Part shown: one piece after another, positions 34,746 to 63,761 of the stretch
How the letters are laid out: every line of letters begins with the position of its first letter
Numbering within the stretch: the first letter of the stretch is position 1
Source of the DNA: Streptomyces sp. NBC_00236
Lineage (GTDB): Bacteria > Actinomycetota > Actinomycetes > Streptomycetales > Streptomycetaceae
Length of the DNA stretch: 64,000 nucleotides
Direction of reading: 5' to 3'
Assembly: GCF_036195045.1 (NCBI RefSeq)
Contig: NZ_CP108100.1
Span: forward strand, 4,092,001 to 4,156,000
The notes under the pieces: generated by a model
The model's database searches: none
What the model was told of the DNA's origin: nothing
Seen by the model: only the letters and a program-made list of their open reading frames with translations
Made by a program: the position numbers and the translations under genes

Positions 34746-34749
34746 TCGT

Positions 34750-34763
34750 GTTTCACGTGAAAC
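34750..34763. other. parS: parS site 1 (upstream of parA)
   Basis: Exact GTTTCACGTGAAAC palindrome, the ParB-binding centromere site. It lies in the rsmG-parA gap, five bases after a terminator-like hairpin. Confidence 0.95.
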
Positions 34764-34846
34764 GTCGCTCTCTGCTGCATGGAATCATCGGCCGCGGTCG
34801 TGCGGCCGCCACCCCTCGCCATCGCAGGCCCGTTAGGGCTACGGAG

Positions 34847-34873
34847 TTGTCCACAGAAGTGGATTCATCCACA
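34847..34873. promoter_or_regulatory. DnaA box pair upstream of parA
   Basis: Exact TTGTCCACA at 34847-34855 and TCATCCACA (one mismatch from TTATCCACA) at 34865-34873, same orientation. They lie in the 303-bp rsmG-parA interval between parS 1 and the proposed parA start. Confidence 0.6.
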
Positions 34874-34957
34874 GAAGAGCGGGCCTCGCTGGTTCGCGAC
34901 CCCGAAACCATGGCAGGCTCTGCTCATTGCGAGCCTGAAGTCGAGGAGAGTGAATCC

Positions 34958-35986
34958 TTGCGGTCCGACGCCAACATCGCGGGACCGATGACCGATCCGG
35001 TCCCCGGTCCCCGAACCGAATCGGCGGGGGACGGTGTTTCACGTGAAACACCGCCGCCGATGGATGACACACCCATCGGCCGTGCGGCCCAGTTGGCGGT
35101 GGAGGCCCTCGGCCGTGCCGGCGAGGGGCTGCCGCGGCCTGACCAGACACGGGTCATGGTGGTGGCCAACCAGAAGGGCGGGGTAGGCAAGACCACCTCG
35201 ACGGTCAACCTTGCCGCCTCGCTTGCGCTTCACGGTGCACGCGTTCTGGTGGTCGACCTCGACCCGCAGGGGAACGCCTCCACGGCTCTGGGGATCGACC
35301 ACCATGCCGAAGTCCCCTCCATCTATGACGTCCTGGTGGAGAGCAAACCGCTCTCCGACGTGGTCCAGCCGGTCCCGGACGTCGAAGGTCTCTTCTGTGC
35401 CCCGGCGACCATCGATCTTGCCGGTGCGGAGATCGAGCTGGTGTCGCTGGTGGCGCGGGAGAGCCGGCTGCAGCGAGCGATCCAGGCGTACGAGCAGCCG
35501 CTCGACTACATCCTGATCGACTGCCCGCCCTCGCTCGGCCTGCTGACGGTCAATGCCCTGGTGGCCGGTGCGGAGGTGCTGATCCCGATTCAGTGCGAGT
35601 ACTACGCGCTGGAAGGGCTGGGACAGCTGTTGCGCAACGTCGACCTGGTACGAGGGCATCTCAACCCCGATCTCCATGTGTCGACGATCCTGCTCACCAT
35701 GTACGACGGCCGGACCAGGCTCGCGTCACAGGTCGCGGAGGAGGTGCGCAGTCACTTCGGCAAGGAGGTGTTGCGGACCAGCATTCCCCGGTCGGTACGG
35801 ATCTCGGAAGCGCCGAGCTACGGGCAGACCGTGCTCACGTACGACCCCGGTTCGAGCGGGTCCCTGTCCTACCTCGAAGCAGCCCGTGAGATCGCGTTGC
35901 GTGGGGTCGGGGTCCAGTACGAGGCCCAGCACGCCCGGACGGGCAGCCGGAACAGCCAGCAGAATACTTCGGAGGGGATCCAGTGA
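34958..35986 (+). CDS. parA: Chromosome partitioning ATPase ParA
   Basis: A 342-aa deviant Walker-type ATPase that moves or positions ParB-parS complexes. The deviant Walker A is KGGVGKTT (73-80), with VVDLDPQGN and IDCPPSLG following. Several starts are possible. I prefer TTG at 34958 because GAGGAGAG lies seven bases before it; ATG at 34910 and 34988 and the longest frame from 34748 have no comparable site. The second parS is inside the coding region and reads V-S-R-E-T. The stop overlaps parB as GTGA. In Streptomyces, parAB is upregulated during sporulation. Confidence 0.95.
35036..35049. other. parS: parS site 2 (inside parA)
   Basis: Exact GTTTCACGTGAAAC within the N-terminal coding region of parA. 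Confidence 0.95.
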
Positions 35987-37086
35987 GTGAGCGTCGCAGA
36001 GGTTTGGGGCGAGGGCTGGGTGCCCTGATCCCCGCCGCTCCGCAGGAGAAGCAGGTGCCGCCCGCCGGGATGGGTACGTCCTCGCCGGGGGCGATGCCGG
36101 TGCTGACGTCCGAGCGGGGTGTGGCCGTCGCGAAGGTGACCACCCTTGGCTCGGGTGGCCCTGTGGTGCCGGAGCCGAGCTCACCGGTCTCGGTGTCCGA
36201 CGGTACCGCCGGACCGGCAGAGGTGGCCGGGGCGTACTTTGCCGAGCTTGCCATCGACTCGATCACGCCGAACCCTCGTCAGCCGCGTGAGGTGTTCGAC
36301 GAGGACGCGCTCGCCGAGCTGGTCACTTCCATCAAGGAGGTGGGTCTTCTCCAGCCCGTCGTCGTACGGAAGGCGGAATCCGGGCGCTTTGAGCTCATCA
36401 TGGGTGAGCGGCGCTGGAGGGCCTGCCGTGAGGCCGGTCTGAAGCAGATCCCTGCGATCGTCCGGGCCACCGACGACGAGAAGCTCCTTCTGGACGCGCT
36501 TCTGGAGAACCTTCACCGGGCTCAGCTGAACCCCTTGGAGGAGGCGGCCGCGTACGACCAGCTGCTCAAGGACTTCAAGTGCACCCATGACCAGTTGGCC
36601 GACCGGATCGGGCGTTCCCGGCCGCAGGTGTCCAACACCCTGCGTCTGCTGCGGCTGTCGCCGCCGGTGCAGCGCCGGGTCGCGGCCGGGGTGCTGTCGG
36701 CAGGACACGCGCGGGCGCTGCTGTCGGTGGACGACTCCGATGAGCAGGACAAGCTGGCGCATCGCATCGTGGCCGAAGGGCTCTCCGTGCGCGCGGTCGA
36801 GGAGATCGTGACGCTCATGAGCTCCAGGCCCACGAGTGCGGCACGATCGAAGGGTCCCCGGGCCGGCGGTCGGCTGTCGCCGGCGCTGACCGATCTGGCG
36901 TCCCGGCTGTCCGACCGGTTCGAGACCAGGGTGAAGGTCGACCTCGGGCAGAAGAAGGGGAAGATCGTCGTCGAGTTCGCCTCGATGGAGGATCTGGACC
37001 GCATCCTCGGCAGCCTCGCGCCCGGCGAGGGGCGTGTCCTGGACCGCGCCACCGCGGAGGAGACGGCCGAGGACGACGAGGGCTGA
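35983..37086 (+). CDS. parB: Chromosome partitioning protein ParB
   Basis: A 367-aa CTPase-switch DNA clamp that loads at parS. The N-terminus has [12 protein letters not shown], the ParA-activating basic motif; a low-complexity linker follows; the CTP-binding domain has GERRWRA (141-147) and [17 protein letters not shown]; the parS-reading helix-turn-helix is [20 protein letters not shown]; the C-terminal part dimerises. The GTG overlaps the parA stop. Seven exact parS sites lie in this window, all to the right of parA's start region. Confidence 0.98.
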
Positions 37087-39475: not shown

Positions 39476-40417
39476 TCAGGGGCGGGCGTAGACGTGCGTC
39501 AGCAGGAGCTTTCCCTTGGCCGCAGGCTCGGCGCCGACACAAGCCGCGTCGACGACGTAGGCCTGAACCCTGGCGGAGTCCGTGGGGTGCGGCAGGACGA
39601 CGAGGAAGGCGTCGGACCCTTCGTAGGTGCCCCGCTCGATGGCGAGGGCGGCCGTGTTCCGTCCGGTTCCCTGCTTGATGCAGGGGGGGACGGGCACGGA
39701 GGGCGCGCGGAGCGGGGTTTGAGGTGATGCGGATGTGGGCGACGTGGATTCCGCCGAAGACTTCGTGTCAGCGGAAGGATTCTGCTTTGCGCCACTGGAA
39801 TCCTGCGGGCCGACCGTGTCCGTCCGAGAGCCCAGAAGGCTGTGGACCCGCTCTTCCAGTGTGGACTGCGAGAACGCCTGTGTTCCCTCCTGGGAAGCGC
39901 TGACGCCTTGGTCGGCCGCCTTGAAGCTGTCCGAACCCCCGGACGAGGTGACGTTCTGAAGAAGCAGGACGCTCACGCTGACGACAGCGGCGCCGAGTGC
40001 GGCGCCGAGCACTGCGTTTCGGCGCCGTCGGCGGACAGCGCTGCGGCCGGGACCGGTGGCGGCGCGTGAGTGCCCTGCGGGCCGGTCCGCGAGTTCCTTC
40101 GCCGCGACAGCGGGCTCTGTTTCACGTGAAACATCTGCCGTGGAGGCAGGCGCCGCGAAGGGGGCGCGGCCTCGTGCTTCCTCCGCGAGTGCGGCGTCCA
40201 TGCGGTCCGCGACATCGGCGGGCATGGGTTCAGCGTCGGGCAGGGTGCCCAGGAGCCCACGGATCTCCTCCAGTGAGGCGAGTACATCGGAGCAGATCCC
40301 GCAGTCGGCCAGATGGCCTCGGACATCCTCGGCACGGGACGGGGGGAGCAGATCCTCGGTGAGGTCGGCGATCTCCGAGACGTCCGGGTGCCGGGTCGTG
40401 TCGGTCGTTGATGTCAT
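39476..40417 (-). CDS. Zinc-finger anti-sigma factor of SigM (transmembrane)
   Basis: A 313-aa protein. The N-terminal anti-sigma domain carries the zinc-finger motif H35-x3-C39-x2-C42 (HLADCGIC). A linker, one membrane helix (about 136-154) and an extracytoplasmic Ser/Thr-rich domain follow. It should hold the ECF sigma factor SigM at the membrane. The ATG overlaps the sigM stop as ATGA, which is typical of sigma/anti-sigma pairs. parS 4 lies in its coding region, encoding V-S-R-E-T. The corresponding mycobacterial gene is Rv3912. Confidence 0.9.
   Translation of the reverse strand: MTSTTDTTRHPDVSEIADLTEDLLPPSRAEDVRGHLADCGICSDVLASLEEIRGLLGTLPDAEPMPADVADRMDAALAEEARGRAPFAAPASTADVSRETEPAVAAKELADRPAGHSRAATGPGRSAVRRRRRNAVLGAALGAAVVSVSVLLLQNVTSSGGSDSFKAADQGVSASQEGTQAFSQSTLEERVHSLLGSRTDTVGPQDSSGAKQNPSADTKSSAESTSPTSASPQTPLRAPSVPVPPCIKQGTGRNTAALAIERGTYEGSDAFLVVLPHPTDSARVQAYVVDAACVGAEPAAKGKLLLTHVYARP
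40119..40132. other. parS: parS site 4 (inside the anti-sigma factor gene)
   Basis: Exact GTTTCACGTGAAAC within the anti-sigma coding sequence. Confidence 0.95.
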
Positions 40418-47656: not shown

Positions 47657-49099
47657 GTGCCGAACGCCAATGAAGACAACTCCAGCGCCCTGACCCAGGT
47701 GCAGCTCCGCGCAGTCAGTGAACTGCTGCGGGTGTCGCCGGTCGCCGACGATCTCGCCCGCCGATTCCAGGATGCAGGATTCGGTCTCGCCCTGGTCGGC
47801 GGGTCGGTCCGGGACGCGCTCCTCGGCCGGCTGGGGAACGACCTGGACTTCACGACCGACGCGCGCCCCGAGGACGTGCTGAAGATCGTCAGGCCCTGGG
47901 CGGACTCGGTGTGGGAGGTCGGGATCGCCTTCGGCACGGTGGGCGCGCAGAAGGACGGCTACCAGATCGAAGTCACCACATACCGGTCCGAGGCGTACGA
48001 CAGGACCTCGCGGAAGCCCGAGGTCTCCTACGGCGACTCCATTGACGAGGACCTCGTCCGCCGCGATTTCACGGTGAACGCGATGGCCGTCGCGCTGCCG
48101 CAGAAGGAGTTCGTCGATCCGTACGGTGGCCTCGATGACCTGGCGGAGCGAGTGCTGCGCACTCCGGGCACACCTGAGGACTCCTTCTCCGACGATCCGC
48201 TGCGCATGCTCCGTGCCGCGCGCTTCGCCGCGCAGCTCGACTTCGAGGTGGCCCCGGATGTCGTCGCCGCGATGTCGGAGATGGCGGGCCGGATCGAGAT
48301 CGTCTCTGCCGAGAGGGTCCGGGAGGAGCTCAACAAGCTGCTGCTCTCCTCGCATCCCCGTAAGGGGCTCGCGCTCCTCGTCGACACGGGACTGGCCGAC
48401 CATGTCCTTCCCGAACTCCCCGCGCTCCGGCTGGAACGTGACGAGCATCACCGTCACAAGGATGTGTACGAGCACTCCCTGACCGTCCTGGAGCAGGCGA
48501 TCGACCTGGAGCAGGACGGCCCGGATCTCGTGCTGCGCCTCGCCGCTCTCCTCCATGACATCGGCAAGCCGAGGACCCGGCGTTTCGAGAAGGACGGGCG
48601 GGTCTCGTTCCACCACCACGAAGTGGTGGGCGCCAAGATGGTCAAGAAGCGCATGACCGATCTCAAGTACTCCAACGACATGGTCAAGGACGTTGCCAAG
48701 CTGGTGGAGCTGCACCTGCGCTTCCACGGGTACGGCGACGGGGAGTGGACCGACTCGGCGGTCCGTCGCTATGTGCGCGATGCGGGCCCCCTGCTGGAGC
48801 GGCTGCACAAGTTGACCCGCTCGGACTGCACCACGCGCAACAAGCGCAAGGCCAGTGCTCTCTCGCGGACGTACGACGGGCTTGAGGAGCGCATCGCTCA
48901 GTTGCAGGACCAGGAGGAGCTGGACTCGATCCGGCCGGACCTGGACGGCAACGAGATCATGCAGATCCTGGACGTCGGGCCGGGGCCGGTCATCGGCAAG
49001 GCGTACGCGTTCCTGCTTGAGCTTCGGCTGGAGAACGGGCCGATGGAGCACGACGCGGCAGTCGCAGAGCTCAAGAAGTGGTGGGCGGCACAGGGCTGA
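47657..49099 (+). CDS. pcnA: CCA-adding tRNA nucleotidyltransferase
   Basis: A 480-aa class II nucleotidyltransferase that adds or repairs the 3' CCA of tRNAs; the tRNAs in this window lack encoded CCA, so the enzyme is needed. The nucleotidyltransferase head has VGGSVRDALLGR and DLDFTTDA, the RRDFTVNAMA motif follows, and a C-terminal HD domain is visible (LLHDIGKPRTR). GTG at 47657. It is divergent from the DUF6049-like gene across 183 bp and convergent with the MFS gene. Confidence 0.95.
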   Translation: MPNANEDNSSALTQVQLRAVSELLRVSPVADDLARRFQDAGFGLALVGGSVRDALLGRLGNDLDFTTDARPEDVLKIVRPWADSVWEVGIAFGTVGAQKDGYQIEVTTYRSEAYDRTSRKPEVSYGDSIDEDLVRRDFTVNAMAVALPQKEFVDPYGGLDDLAERVLRTPGTPEDSFSDDPLRMLRAARFAAQLDFEVAPDVVAAMSEMAGRIEIVSAERVREELNKLLLSSHPRKGLALLVDTGLADHVLPELPALRLERDEHHRHKDVYEHSLTVLEQAIDLEQDGPDLVLRLAALLHDIGKPRTRRFEKDGRVSFHHHEVVGAKMVKKRMTDLKYSNDMVKDVAKLVELHLRFHGYGDGEWTDSAVRRYVRDAGPLLERLHKLTRSDCTTRNKRKASALSRTYDGLEERIAQLQDQEELDSIRPDLDGNEIMQILDVGPGPVIGKAYAFLLELRLENGPMEHDAAVAELKKWWAAQG

Positions 49100-49127
49100 G
49101 GTCGCGAAGACCGGCTCGGTCCCCAGG

Positions 49128-49165
49128 GCGGCTGGTCATGTTTCACGTGAAACATGACCAGCCGC
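49128..49165. terminator. 38-bp perfect palindrome centred on parS 5
   Basis: Complete palindrome 49128-49165 with parS in its centre, directly after the CCA-enzyme stop. It could serve as a terminator as well as a ParB site. Confidence 0.85.
49140..49153. other. parS: parS site 5
   Basis: Exact GTTTCACGTGAAAC at the centre of the 38-bp palindrome. Confidence 0.95.
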
Positions 49166-49174
49166 GGATACGTC

Positions 49175-49206
49175 GAGGGCGCTGTTTCACGTGAAACAGC
49201 GCCCTC
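49175..49206. terminator. 32-bp perfect palindrome centred on parS 6
   Basis: Complete palindrome 49175-49206, with parS at its centre. Its right edge touches the stop codon of the leftward MFS gene (49205-49207). Confidence 0.85.
49184..49197. other. parS: parS site 6
   Basis: Exact GTTTCACGTGAAAC, 44 bp from parS 5. Confidence 0.95.
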
Positions 49207-50482
49207 AGTCGAATCGGCGCGCCCGGTCGGTCCTGCTCCATCGCCACAGCATCACGGCCGTGAGGGCGTAGAGGAGAGCGACGCCGATCACCACCGTTGC
49301 TGATCTCCCGTCTGCGGGAAGGAGGAGTGCGGAGGCTGCGGCGGCGCCCACGAAGGCCACGTTGAACAGCACGTCATAGAGCGAGAAGACTCTGCCGCGG
49401 AACGAGTCGTCCACCGCCGTCTGCACCACGGTGTCCGTCGCGATTTTCGCTCCCTGGGTCACCAGGCCGAGAACGAACGCTGCGACGAGCATCGGGGCGG
49501 GCCTGAACCAGAGGCCCAGGGCCGGCTCAAGAACAGCGGCCGCCGCAGCACACACCACCATCCAGCGGAACCGTCCCAGTCGGCCTGCGGCCCAGGGAGT
49601 CAGTACAGCCGCTGCGAAGAAGCCCGCACCGGACACCCCGACCGCCAGGCCGAGCAGCGCCAGCCCGTCGGAGTCGTTGTCGGTCCAGGCGTACCGGCAC
49701 AGCATCAGGACCATGACCGTCAGCGCCCCGTAACAGAAGCGGATCACCGTCATGGCGGCCAGTGCCCGCGCGGCGCTCCTCCGTTCTGCCAGATGGTGCA
49801 ATCCGTGGCGCAGCCCGCGTGCGGTAGTGACCAGTGCCGCACGCAGGCGAAGGTGGCTTTCGCTCCGGTCCGGACCCAGCAGGCCGGAAGCCAGGCTCAG
49901 GGAGGCCAGTGCCGAGGCGAGATACAGGCCGGCGCCCAGGAGCACCACCGCGGCGTCGGAGTCCGAGAGGATCAGGCGAACAGCGAAGGCGAGACCGCCG
50001 CCCGCCGTGGCGGCGAGGGTGCCCGCGGTCGGTGACAGCGAGTTGGCCAGGACCAGCAGGTCCCGGTCGACGACGCGTGGCAGCGCGGCGGAGAGGCCGG
50101 CCAGGACGAAACGGTTGACCGCGGTCACACAGAGCGCCGAGGCATAGAAGAGCCAGTCGGGGGCTGAGCCGAGGATCAGGAGCGCGGTACAGCAGGCGAG
50201 CGCGGCGCGCAGCAGGTTGCCGTACAGGAAGACCTGCCTGCGCGGCCAGCGGTCCAGCAGCACACCGGCGAACGGGCCGATGAGCGAGTAGGGCAGCAGG
50301 AGTACGGCCATTGCGGAGGCGATCGCCCCGGCTGATGCCTGCTTCTCCGGAGAGAAGACGACATGCGCCGCGAGAGCCACCTGATAGACGCCGTCGGCCG
50401 ACTGGGACAGGATCCGCACGGCCAGCAGGCGGCGGAAGTTCCGAAGGCGCAGGAGTACGCGCAGGTCACGCACGACGGGCAT
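49205..50482 (-). CDS. Major facilitator superfamily transporter
   Basis: About 425 aa with some 12 hydrophobic helices. The loop after helix 2 contains GPFAGVLLDRWPRRQVFL, the MFS motif A with D-R-x-x-R/K. The sequence resembles drug-exporter-like MFS proteins (MFS_1/3 type). The substrate is unknown. The ATG at 50480-50482 begins MPVVRDLRVLLRLRNFRRL; a GTG 15 bases upstream is possible and neither has a strong ribosome site. It starts just after the ino1 terminator. Confidence 0.86.
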   Translation of the reverse strand: MPVVRDLRVLLRLRNFRRLLAVRILSQSADGVYQVALAAHVVFSPEKQASAGAIASAMAVLLLPYSLIGPFAGVLLDRWPRRQVFLYGNLLRAALACCTALLILGSAPDWLFYASALCVTAVNRFVLAGLSAALPRVVDRDLLVLANSLSPTAGTLAATAGGGLAFAVRLILSDSDAAVVLLGAGLYLASALASLSLASGLLGPDRSESHLRLRAALVTTARGLRHGLHHLAERRSAARALAAMTVIRFCYGALTVMVLMLCRYAWTDNDSDGLALLGLAVGVSGAGFFAAAVLTPWAAGRLGRFRWMVVCAAAAAVLEPALGLWFRPAPMLVAAFVLGLVTQGAKIATDTVVQTAVDDSFRGRVFSLYDVLFNVAFVGAAAASALLLPADGRSATVVIGVALLYALTAVMLWRWSRTDRARRFD

Positions 50483-50502
50483 GGGAGCAAGGGTCACATA
50501 CG

Positions 50503-50539
50503 TTGAGGGTCCCCGGGCGGATTGCCCGGGGACCCTCAA
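50503..50539 (-). terminator. Hairpin terminator after ino1
   Basis: Perfect 16-bp stem (50503-50518 with 50524-50539), 5-nt loop, downstream of the leftward ino1 stop. Confidence 0.88.
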
Positions 50540-50606
50540 GGGTGCGTGAGCCAAGGAGCGTTGCCGCTCCTCACTGCTCCGCGCCGATGCACCGTGTCAG
50601 GTGACG

Positions 50607-61592: not shown

Positions 61593-62039
61593 ATGAAGAT
61601 CATCCTCACCCACGAGGTCTCCGGCCTCGGTGCTGCTGGCGACGTCGTTGACGTCAAGGACGGGTACGCCCGTAACTACCTGGTTCCGCGTGGCTTTGCC
61701 ATCCGCTGGACCAAGGGTGGCGAGAAGGACGTGGCGCAGATCCGCCGCGCCCGCAAGATCCACGAGATCGCCACGATCGAGCAGGCCAACGAGATCAAGT
61801 CCAAGCTCGAGGCCGTGAAGGTCCGTCTGGCCGTTCGCTCCGGCGACGCCGGCCGTCTCTTCGGCTCTGTCACCCCTGCCGACATCGCTTCGGCGATCAA
61901 GGCTGCGGGTGGCCCGGATGTCGACAAGCGTCGCGTCGAGCTCGGCTCGCCGATCAAGACGCTCGGCGGACACCAGGTGTCCGTGCGTCTGCACCCCGAG
62001 GTCGCTGCGAAGCTCGGCGTCGAGGTTGTTGCTGCCTGA
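61593..62039 (+). CDS. rplI: 50S ribosomal protein L9 (bL9)
   Basis: A 148-aa protein with the L9 N-terminal signature ([30 protein letters not shown]) in two parts, a long connecting helix and the C-terminal domain ending in [12 protein letters not shown]. It is the last gene of the operon and is followed by a strong hairpin and then a parS-derived array. Confidence 0.98.
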
Positions 62040-62064
62040 TCGGGCCGCACCTCAGCAGAACAGT

Positions 62065-62095
62065 GAAGGGCCGCACCCCGAGGGTGCGGCCCTTC
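62065..62095 (+). terminator. Hairpin terminator after rplI
   Basis: Perfect 14-bp stem (62065-62078 with 62082-62095), 3-nt loop CGA. Confidence 0.9.
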
Positions 62096-62109
62096 GCCGT
62101 TGCCGGGCG

Positions 62110-62220
62110 GCTCCGTTTCACGTGAAACGGGGACCGGTCTCCACGTGAAACGGGACCGGTCTCCACGTGAAACGGGACCGGTCCCTACGAGGATCGGGAC
62201 GGCTCTTCACTTGAAACGGG
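62110..62220. repeat. Decayed parS array with 22-bp period
   Basis: After parS 7 the half-site CACGTGAAAC recurs at 62142-62151 and 62164-62173, then a degraded unit, then CACTTGAAAC at 62208-62217. Unit spacing is 23, 22 and 2x22 bp. The repeat GACCGGTCTCCACGTGAAAC is identical in the two middle units (62132 and 62154). It lies between rplI and the convergent MATE gene. Confidence 0.85.
62115..62128. other. parS: parS site 7
   Basis: Exact GTTTCACGTGAAAC, the first unit of the degenerate array at 62110-62220. Confidence 0.95.
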
Positions 62221-62235
62221 TCCGGAGCGGTGGGC

Positions 62236-63573
62236 TCAGCGGGTGGCGCCCGTGACCACCCATCTGCCGGAGCGGGCGCGAAGCCAGAGCGTCGCCATGC
62301 GTACGAGCATCATGAGAGCCATCGCGCACCACAGCGTGGTCAGGCCGCCCCCGAGGACGGGAACCAGCAGGGCCGCCGGGGCGAAGACCGCCAGGGTGAC
62401 GAGCATGGCCCAGGCCAGATAGGTCCCGTCCCCGGCGCCCATCAGTACGCCGTCCAGGACGAAGACGACTCCGGCGACCGGCTGGGTCAGCGCAACCACC
62501 AGCAGGGCGGGGAACAGCGTGTCCTGCACGGACTGGTCGCTGGTGAAGAGCGGGACGAACAGCGGACGGGCAAGAACGATCAGTGCGCCGAACACGACGC
62601 CGGCGACGACTCCCCACTCCACCATGCGGCGGCAGGCCTCACGGGCGCCCTTGGTGTCACCGGCCCCCAGATAGCGCCCGATGATGGCCTGGCCCGCGAT
62701 GGCGATGGCATCCAGCGCGAAGGCCATCAGGCTCCACAGCGACAGAATGATCTGGTGCGCGGCGATGTCGGTGTCGCCCAGCCGGGCGGCGACGGCGGTG
62801 GCGATGAGCAGGACGGCGCGGAGTGACAGCGTGCGGACCAGAAGGGGCACGCCTGCCCGGGCGCTGGCCTTGATGCCGGCGGCGTCGGGGCGCAGCGAGG
62901 CCCCGTGGCGCCGGGCGCCACGGACCACGACCACGAGATAGGCGACCGCCATGCCGATCTGGGCGATCACCGTGCCCCAGGCCGATCCCGCGATGCCGAG
63001 CCCGGCACCGTAGACGAGGCCGGCGTTGAGGGCCCCGTTGGCGGCGAATCCGCCGATGGCGACGTAGAGCGGGGTGCGGGTGTTCTGCAGGCCCCGGAGC
63101 ACACCGGTCGCGGCCATCACCACGAGCATCGCGGGGATGCCGAGGCTGGAGATCCGGAGGTAGGTGGTCGCGTAGGGGGCCGCGGTGTCGGAGGCGCCGA
63201 ACACCTCGACGAGCCAGGGGGCCAGGGGGAGCGCCAGGGCGATGACGGCGAGGCCGAGCAGGATCGCCAGCCAGATCCCGTCCATTCCCTGGCGGATCGC
63301 GGACGGCAGGTCGCCGGCACCGACCCGTCGTGCGACAGCCGCGGTGGTGGCGTAGGCCAGGAAGACGAAGATGCTCACGCCGGTCATCAGCAAGGCTGCG
63401 GCAACGGCCAGACCGGCCAGTTGTGGAGTCCCGAGGTGGCCGACGATGGCACTGTCGACCATCACGAAAAGGGGCTCTGCCACGAGGGCGCCGAAGGCGG
63501 GGACGGCGAGCGCGATGATCTCGCGGTCGTGTCGCCTGCGACGGGACGGCGGGGTCGCCGGTGCCTGGATCAT
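62236..63573 (-). CDS. MATE family efflux transporter
   Basis: About 445 aa with 12 predicted helices in two related halves of the MATE (DinF-like) type; PLFVMVDSAIVGHLGTPQLAGL is the classical first-half signature. MATE proteins export cationic compounds using Na+ or H+. The ATG at 63571-63573 is preferred over a TTG three codons upstream. The gene lies between rplI and the region where dnaB is expected, as in other Streptomyces. Confidence 0.92.
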   Translation of the reverse strand: MIQAPATPPSRRRRHDREIIALAVPAFGALVAEPLFVMVDSAIVGHLGTPQLAGLAVAAALLMTGVSIFVFLAYATTAAVARRVGAGDLPSAIRQGMDGIWLAILLGLAVIALALPLAPWLVEVFGASDTAAPYATTYLRISSLGIPAMLVVMAATGVLRGLQNTRTPLYVAIGGFAANGALNAGLVYGAGLGIAGSAWGTVIAQIGMAVAYLVVVVRGARRHGASLRPDAAGIKASARAGVPLLVRTLSLRAVLLIATAVAARLGDTDIAAHQIILSLWSLMAFALDAIAIAGQAIIGRYLGAGDTKGAREACRRMVEWGVVAGVVFGALIVLARPLFVPLFTSDQSVQDTLFPALLVVALTQPVAGVVFVLDGVLMGAGDGTYLAWAMLVTLAVFAPAALLVPVLGGGLTTLWCAMALMMLVRMATLWLRARSGRWVVTGATR

Positions 63574-63761
63574 GGGAGCCAATCTAATCTTCCACAGGTA
63601 ATGGATGCAAGCGGTTTGCGATCCTTACAAATGCCGTGGAGTGACGTTCTGGCATGTGCCGGTTGCCGCGATCTTGTGCTGACTTGGAAAGTTTTTCTCC
63701 CCCACAGCCCGTGGATGGAGAAAGTGCAGGTCAAGCCGCTGATGGCGGCGTGGCTATGAGT

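Follow-up and report, generated by a model that had tools for sequence, protein, structure and literature searches.

A parS array behind rplI in Streptomyces sp. NBC_00236, most likely a tandem-copied and partly broken cluster at a fast-turnover locus

The window analysed here is a stretch of 64,000 nucleotides from Streptomyces sp. NBC_00236 (positions 4,092,001-4,156,000 of an 8.33-Mb contig). At one end of it, rplI and the gene of a MATE-family transporter converge on an interval that harbors one exact parS and a run of imperfect units derived from the same motif (Table 1). The region of the hairpin at the 3′ end of rplI folds strongly (62041-62105, -40.7 kcal/mol, z -4.7), and no U-tract intrinsic terminator is called in 61900-62400. 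The genome contains 15 exact parS, 13 of which lie within 4,033,454-4,184,475 and the other two at 3,873,075 and 4,399,244. The sites are clustered, and the cognate ParB gene is nearby (parA-parB at 34748-37086). Two exact parS are located inside open reading frames, at 35036-35049 (parA) and 40119-40132 (minus-strand ORF 39476-40417), where they read Ser-Arg-Glu-Thr. Outside the window, sites with one mismatch are present in the same genome at 4014715, 4206574, and 4600862.

Table 1. Features of the rplI-MATE interval, the partition genes, and the palindromic parS doublet, in window coordinates
Feature	Position	Strand	Remarks
parA	34748..35986	+	Pfam AAA_31
parB	35983..37086	+	Pfam ParB_N, HTH_ParB, ParB_C
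parS 49140-49153, centre of a 38-bp perfect palindrome	49128..49165	.	arm extension 12 bp
parS 49184-49197, centre of a 32-bp perfect palindrome	49175..49206	.	arm extension 9 bp
rplI, ribosomal protein L9	61593..62039	+	ORF; Pfam Ribosomal_L9_N and _C
rplI 3′ hairpin, GAAGGGCCGCACCC / GGGTGCGGCCCTTC	62065..62095	+	without U tract
exact parS, GTTTCACGTGAAAC	62115-62128	.	sole intact site of the array; 14-bp palindrome with both half-sites
repeat unit 1	62119..62141	+	23 nt; comprises the right part of the exact parS and the spacer
repeat unit 2	62142..62163	+	with 62138-62141 reads TCTCCACGTGAAAC, 3 mismatches to parS
repeat unit 3	62164..62185	+	TCTCCACGTGAAAC, 3 mismatches to parS
unit 4, eroded	62186..62207	+	8/14 mismatches to parS (14-mer at 62182)
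unit 5	62208..62229	+	with 62204-62207 reads TCTTCACTTGAAAC, 3 mismatches to parS
MATE-family transporter gene, convergent with rplI	62236..63582	-	ORF; Pfam MatE

The array follows a regular lattice. The 14-mers at 62138, 62160, 62182, and 62204 differ from parS at 3, 3, 8, and 3 positions, respectively. The 22-bp repeat that the first-pass annotation had described behind rplI is thereby confirmed, and its coordinates are correct except for the first step, which measures 23 bp (62115 to 62138), all others being 22 bp. Tandem Repeats Finder reports the same structure independently (62119-62225, period 22, 4.8 copies, score 135). The half-site motif CACGTGAAAC stands at 62142 and 62164, and the variant CACTTGAAAC at 62208. 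The heptamer GTGAAAC (reverse complement GTTTCAC) is kept in unit 2 (62145-62151) and unit 3 (62167-62173), and unit 5 carries TTGAAAC, one base off. None of units 2-5 has both half-sites of a parS. Three of the four lattice positions match parS with at most three mismatches, compared with a maximum of one in 200,000 single-base shuffles of the right-hand sequence (reached by 10 shuffles), for a lattice that was picked after the array had been seen. At the same threshold the whole window holds 10 matches (seven exact sites and three array units), against 1.12 expected. A chance origin of the array is excluded.

Comparison of the units with each other points to tandem duplication. Unit 1 is identical to unit 2 at 22/22 positions when a single G is removed from unit 1, and unit 3 is identical to both at 21/22, which means that the spacer was copied together with the half-site, as is characteristic of tandem duplication. 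Because units 1-3 agree at 21-22/22 positions with their spacers included, units 2 and 3 are recent copies. A copied 22-bp segment that starts inside parS (CACGTGAAACGGGACCGGTCTC) would account for the presence of the core and the right half-site without the left one; the left half-site of units 2 and 3 may have been lost before the last duplication, or it may never have been copied. Units 4 and 5 are less alike (10-17/22 identical with any other unit, unit 4 reaching 14-15/22 with units 1-3).

The nearest named relatives by MATE protein, among the matches listed, are Streptomyces sp. or43 (97%) and S. poriferorum (96%), the list being one that may omit the window's own record. The interval was aligned between the window, these two sister species (L057 and L058, respectively), locus L056, and six others. 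In S. poriferorum, the interval is 21 bp shorter than in the window, which corresponds to one unit fewer, and a second site with one mismatch aligns with unit 3 of the window. In sp. or43, the middle part that comprises units 2-3 is absent. A stretch homologous to unit 4 is present in both species, and unit 5 is found in all three at the aligned position with 3 (window), 2 (S. poriferorum), and 4 (sp. or43) mismatches. The further relative sp. A0642 has an exact site and a one-mismatch site 24 bp apart. Units 4 and 5 are thus best described as older wreckage common to the sister species. On the basis of the alignment and the unit identities, the array is composed of fresh copies and old wreckage. 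An "unequal-crossover duplication in decay", one of the origins considered in the first-pass annotation, is therefore right about the duplication and about old decay in units 4-5, but not about separate decay of units 2 and 3, which are near-identical and hence did not decay separately.

The rplI-MATE locus can be followed across the genus. The rplI regions of 120 genomes, the window's own included, extend over up to 19.9 kb (two are under 18 kb) and represent the first 121 matches by similarity among 392 genomes searched, minus one whose match lies at a contig start (G044). They were complemented with the 80 named loci that ranked highest among the listed matches to the MATE protein. Both samples lean to close relatives and overlap, and the 200 regions reduce to 186 distinct ones. 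An exact parS is present within 700 bp of rplI in 112 of the 120 regions, 46 of which have two to four sites; the distinct regions give 176/186 with at least one and 72/186 with two to four. The expectation that parS are normally single palindromes thus fails for the genus. Of the 181 regions in which the MATE stop could be placed, 174 retain an exact parS in the stretch from rplI to the MATE gene (in the remaining 5 of 186, no stop of MATE was assigned at 60-500 bp behind rplI).

Tandem copies of different pitch are found at this locus. Streptomyces sp. McG3 has four units at 23 bp (three exact, one with one mismatch), S. fimicarius three exact parS at 23 bp, and S. globisporus 1912-4Crt three exact parS at 23 bp with identical spacers. 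A 24-bp repeat occurs in sp. CBMA291, and sp. LHD-70 carries a parS-like 41-bp repeat 121-216 bases after the rplI stop, in which the spacers differ at one base, two copies share the same single mismatch, and one copy is exact. The identical spacers in S. globisporus and the repeats of 41 and 24 bp in sp. LHD-70 and sp. CBMA291 indicate that tandem copying recurs. On a tree of the rpsR-rplI block (182 tips; 4 of the 186 regions have short upstream sequence and are left out), the class of exact-site number (0, 1, 2+) changes at least 40 times, compared with 56-72 times in 30 label shuffles. A pitch of 22-24 bp, present at 17/182 tips, changes 8 times, compared with 15-17 in 30 shuffles. Both characters show fast turnover with family likeness, and the family likeness of the pitch leaves room for a clade-specific preference in spacing. 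Sites with one or two mismatches are rare in the 120 regions (17, against 485 exact parS) and are 31-fold denser where an exact parS lies no more than 120 bp away (9 in 82,187 bp) than elsewhere (8 in 2,286,497 bp), as expected of short-lived remnants. Sites with three mismatches number 5 near exact parS and 13 elsewhere, and 3 of those 5 come from the window's array itself.

From these comparisons, the interval is taken to be a parS locus with one intact putative loading site and four non-intact copies that arose by tandem duplication, a reading with a probability of roughly 0.8. Slippage or unequal exchange would repeatedly add parS copies to the rplI-MATE interval, and selection would retain at least one exact copy while the others would be free to be lost. 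Exact parS load ParB-CTP clamps. ParB would load at the exact site 62115-62128 as usual and then slide over the remaining units, and the broken units would add little or nothing to loading. The half-site run is probably for the most part an evolutionary by-product, since runs of this kind appear and disappear among related species, which nearly always retain one good copy or more.

The array likeliest belongs with the known parS clusters, as a tandem-copied and partly broken one. With the chromosomal clusters of S. coelicolor and S. venezuelae it shares the exact motif and the nearby parA-parB, in a genome with 15 exact sites, and it differs in that the extra units at 62138-62217 are not intact. 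In S. venezuelae, two pairs among 16 parS were too close to be distinguished by ChIP-seq, as stated in an excerpt of PMC4852455. The half-parS of Pseudomonas aeruginosa share the heptamer GTGAAAC with units 2 and 3, whereas the half-sites here derive from the copying of a parS. Tandem centromeres of plasmids of the F sopC type consist of direct repeats that contain the partition site, and all of their sites are intact. Direct repeats of a partition site are thus common to both, but just one of five is intact here.

Several other explanations compete with tandem duplication of a parS. The one that survives best, although it is possible rather than probable, proposes that the units are kept as the folded 3′ end of the MATE gene, with selection acting on the RNA hairpin and parS being only incidental; it is compatible with tandem duplication and does not exclude it. 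The spacer GGGACCGGTC(T/C)C comes close to a palindrome and pairs from one unit to another, and 62105-62235 folds better than shuffles on both strands (z -4.25 minus, -3.84 plus). The minus strand of the homologous interval reaches z -4.8 in sp. or43 and -7.2 in S. poriferorum, and many other parS form palindrome cores near stop codons. Among the rplI-MATE regions folded (156 of 181; the 25 omitted are under 40 nt), 100 have a z below -2, but the other 56 fail to reach this value, and a palindromic unit repeated in tandem folds well even in the absence of selection. The hairpin reading is further weakened by the absence of a U tract from 61900-62400 and by the arms of the palindromes, which are extended by at least 5 bp in just 19 of 168 parS at rplI and by 2 bp at the window's own site.

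Far less credible is a role of the units in ParB spreading, in which phased half-sites about two helical turns apart on one face of the DNA would help ParB bound at the exact parS to spread or bridge. The pitch of 22-23 bp is regular, and such arrays exist in relatives (sp. McG3, S. fimicarius); the phased units in these relatives, however, are full parS and not half-sites. The 87 spacings between exact sites at rplI include 14 of 23 bp and 10 of 19 bp. Helical phasing of rplI parS pairs was considered and rejected: with the 5 spacings over 59 bp dropped, Rayleigh R is 0.08 at 10.5 bp (n=82), and the same spacings give 0.17-0.21 at periods of 11.5-14 bp. Likewise rejected as support for the 22-bp lattice was the 44-bp step, the commonest at a nucleotidyltransferase/MFS junction (26 pairs), which is no independent evidence because it stems from one conserved locus. 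The phased spreading element proposed in the first-pass annotation therefore finds no support, as the two nearest sisters either lack units 2-3 (sp. or43) or have a single one-mismatch, near-intact site in their place (S. poriferorum), and a 10.5-bp period is missing. The literature adds to this. ParB of P. aeruginosa binds half-parS sites, which would favor spreading via half-sites, but an excerpt of the same source lists S. coelicolor ParB among those without such binding in ChIP of ParBs made in E. coli (PMC7022226). For canonical ParB, closure of the clamp is proposed to follow the meeting of two subunits on opposing half-sites, according to an excerpt of PMC12260392. These two reports are the reason why the broken units are considered passive. 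Least probable of all are binding sites for another regulator that recognizes the palindrome GGGACCGGTCCC and is unrelated to ParB: the spacer is constant in units 1-3 apart from one base in unit 3, but it is different in both sister species, the interval sits between two gene ends, and no sigma-70-like promoter is called in 61900-62400 (other promoter types being outside the scan).

Many parS in these regions are associated with long palindromes. Of the exact parS found in the 120 regions (485 in all), 180 form the centre of a perfect palindrome whose arms extend by 5 bp or more, compared with 9.5 expected with swapped flanks, although these counts are not independent events because related genomes share arms. 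The longest arms measure 24 bp, and 305 of the 485 sites have no such arms. Extended arms are unevenly distributed: 145/236 about 13 kb before rplI, 1/29 at 5.5-7.5 kb before it, 19/168 at rplI, where the window's own site belongs to the unextended ones, and 14/43 at 4-6 kb after it (the remaining 9 parS belong to none of these bins or lie at the end of a region).

In 117/120 regions, an exact parS stands roughly 13 kb before rplI. In the window, this place is occupied by a doublet (49128-49206): two convergent genes are each followed by one parS, and the two sites are 44 bp apart. The 38-bp palindrome lies 3′ of a gene of the poly(A) polymerase/tRNA nucleotidyltransferase family (47657-49099), and the 32-bp palindrome shares 2 bp with the end of the convergent MFS gene (49205-50554, minus strand). 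The fold of 49120-49215 reaches z -9.9 and -10.2. Both gene ends were located in 112 of the 120 genomes (the other 8 are left out). The edges of the parS or palindromes lie at a median of 14 and 7 nt from the two stops (quartiles 8-23 and -2 to 36; 111 genomes), 225/227 parS fall between both stops at a tolerance of 20 bp, and 84/97 doublets have at least one extended site. At this junction, 114/236 parS have arms of 8 or more perfectly paired bp, and these 8-bp arms come in 54 different sequences; the arms therefore change between species yet stay complementary. Complementarity at arm positions 2-8 is 0.74-0.86, compared with 0.37-0.60 for swapped flanks, and involves several pair types, whereas position 1 is mostly T-A, real or swapped, and carries little information. 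In the window's own genome, 4 of the 15 exact parS have arms of at least 5 bp, each just behind a gene stop as judged from mechanically called ORFs. Two are those of the doublet. The other two are at 3873075 (L011 1501-1514, arm 12 bp), 27 bp past the stop of one ORF and ahead of the following ORF, which is on the same strand, and at 4033454 (L012 1501-1514, arm 7 bp), between two convergent ORFs.

No U tract is called at the palindromes of the doublet, the one U-tract terminator called in 48900-49400 (49116-49135) is something other than a parS palindrome, and the sequence behind the arms shows no excess of T (0.25). A terminator role is hence deduced from where the palindromes lie and from their compensated pairing. 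The paired arms might also have arisen by quasi-palindrome correction during replication. In the terminators of Neisseria that contain uptake sequences, a DNA word recognized by a protein likewise takes part in 3′-end hairpins, as parS seems to do at other loci here. The difference is that parS is itself palindromic and forms the tip of the hairpin, whose arms are flanking sequence unrelated to it, and that a U tract is lacking. The titles and opening lines of abstracts searched hold no description of parS in 3′-end hairpins or of a half-site array, which is not to claim absence from print. The chances are about even that many Streptomyces parS would form the tips of long 3′-end hairpins, in which a single element would be both putative ParB loading site and transcript end for convergent genes. 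The array at rplI would then be a by-product of slippage in such a hairpin zone.

The likeliest meaning of the array itself is ordinary, namely a parS cluster that was copied in tandem and partly broken, at a locus of fast turnover. It illustrates that parS clusters can grow and shrink by tandem copying while at least one exact site is nearly always kept. The association of parS with hairpins is the more interesting lead. Compensated palindromes that are built around a parS and lie at gene ends would tie chromosome segregation to the termination of transcription at convergent genes: if true, transcription is predicted to stop at the very place where ParB clamps, followed by SMC, are loaded.
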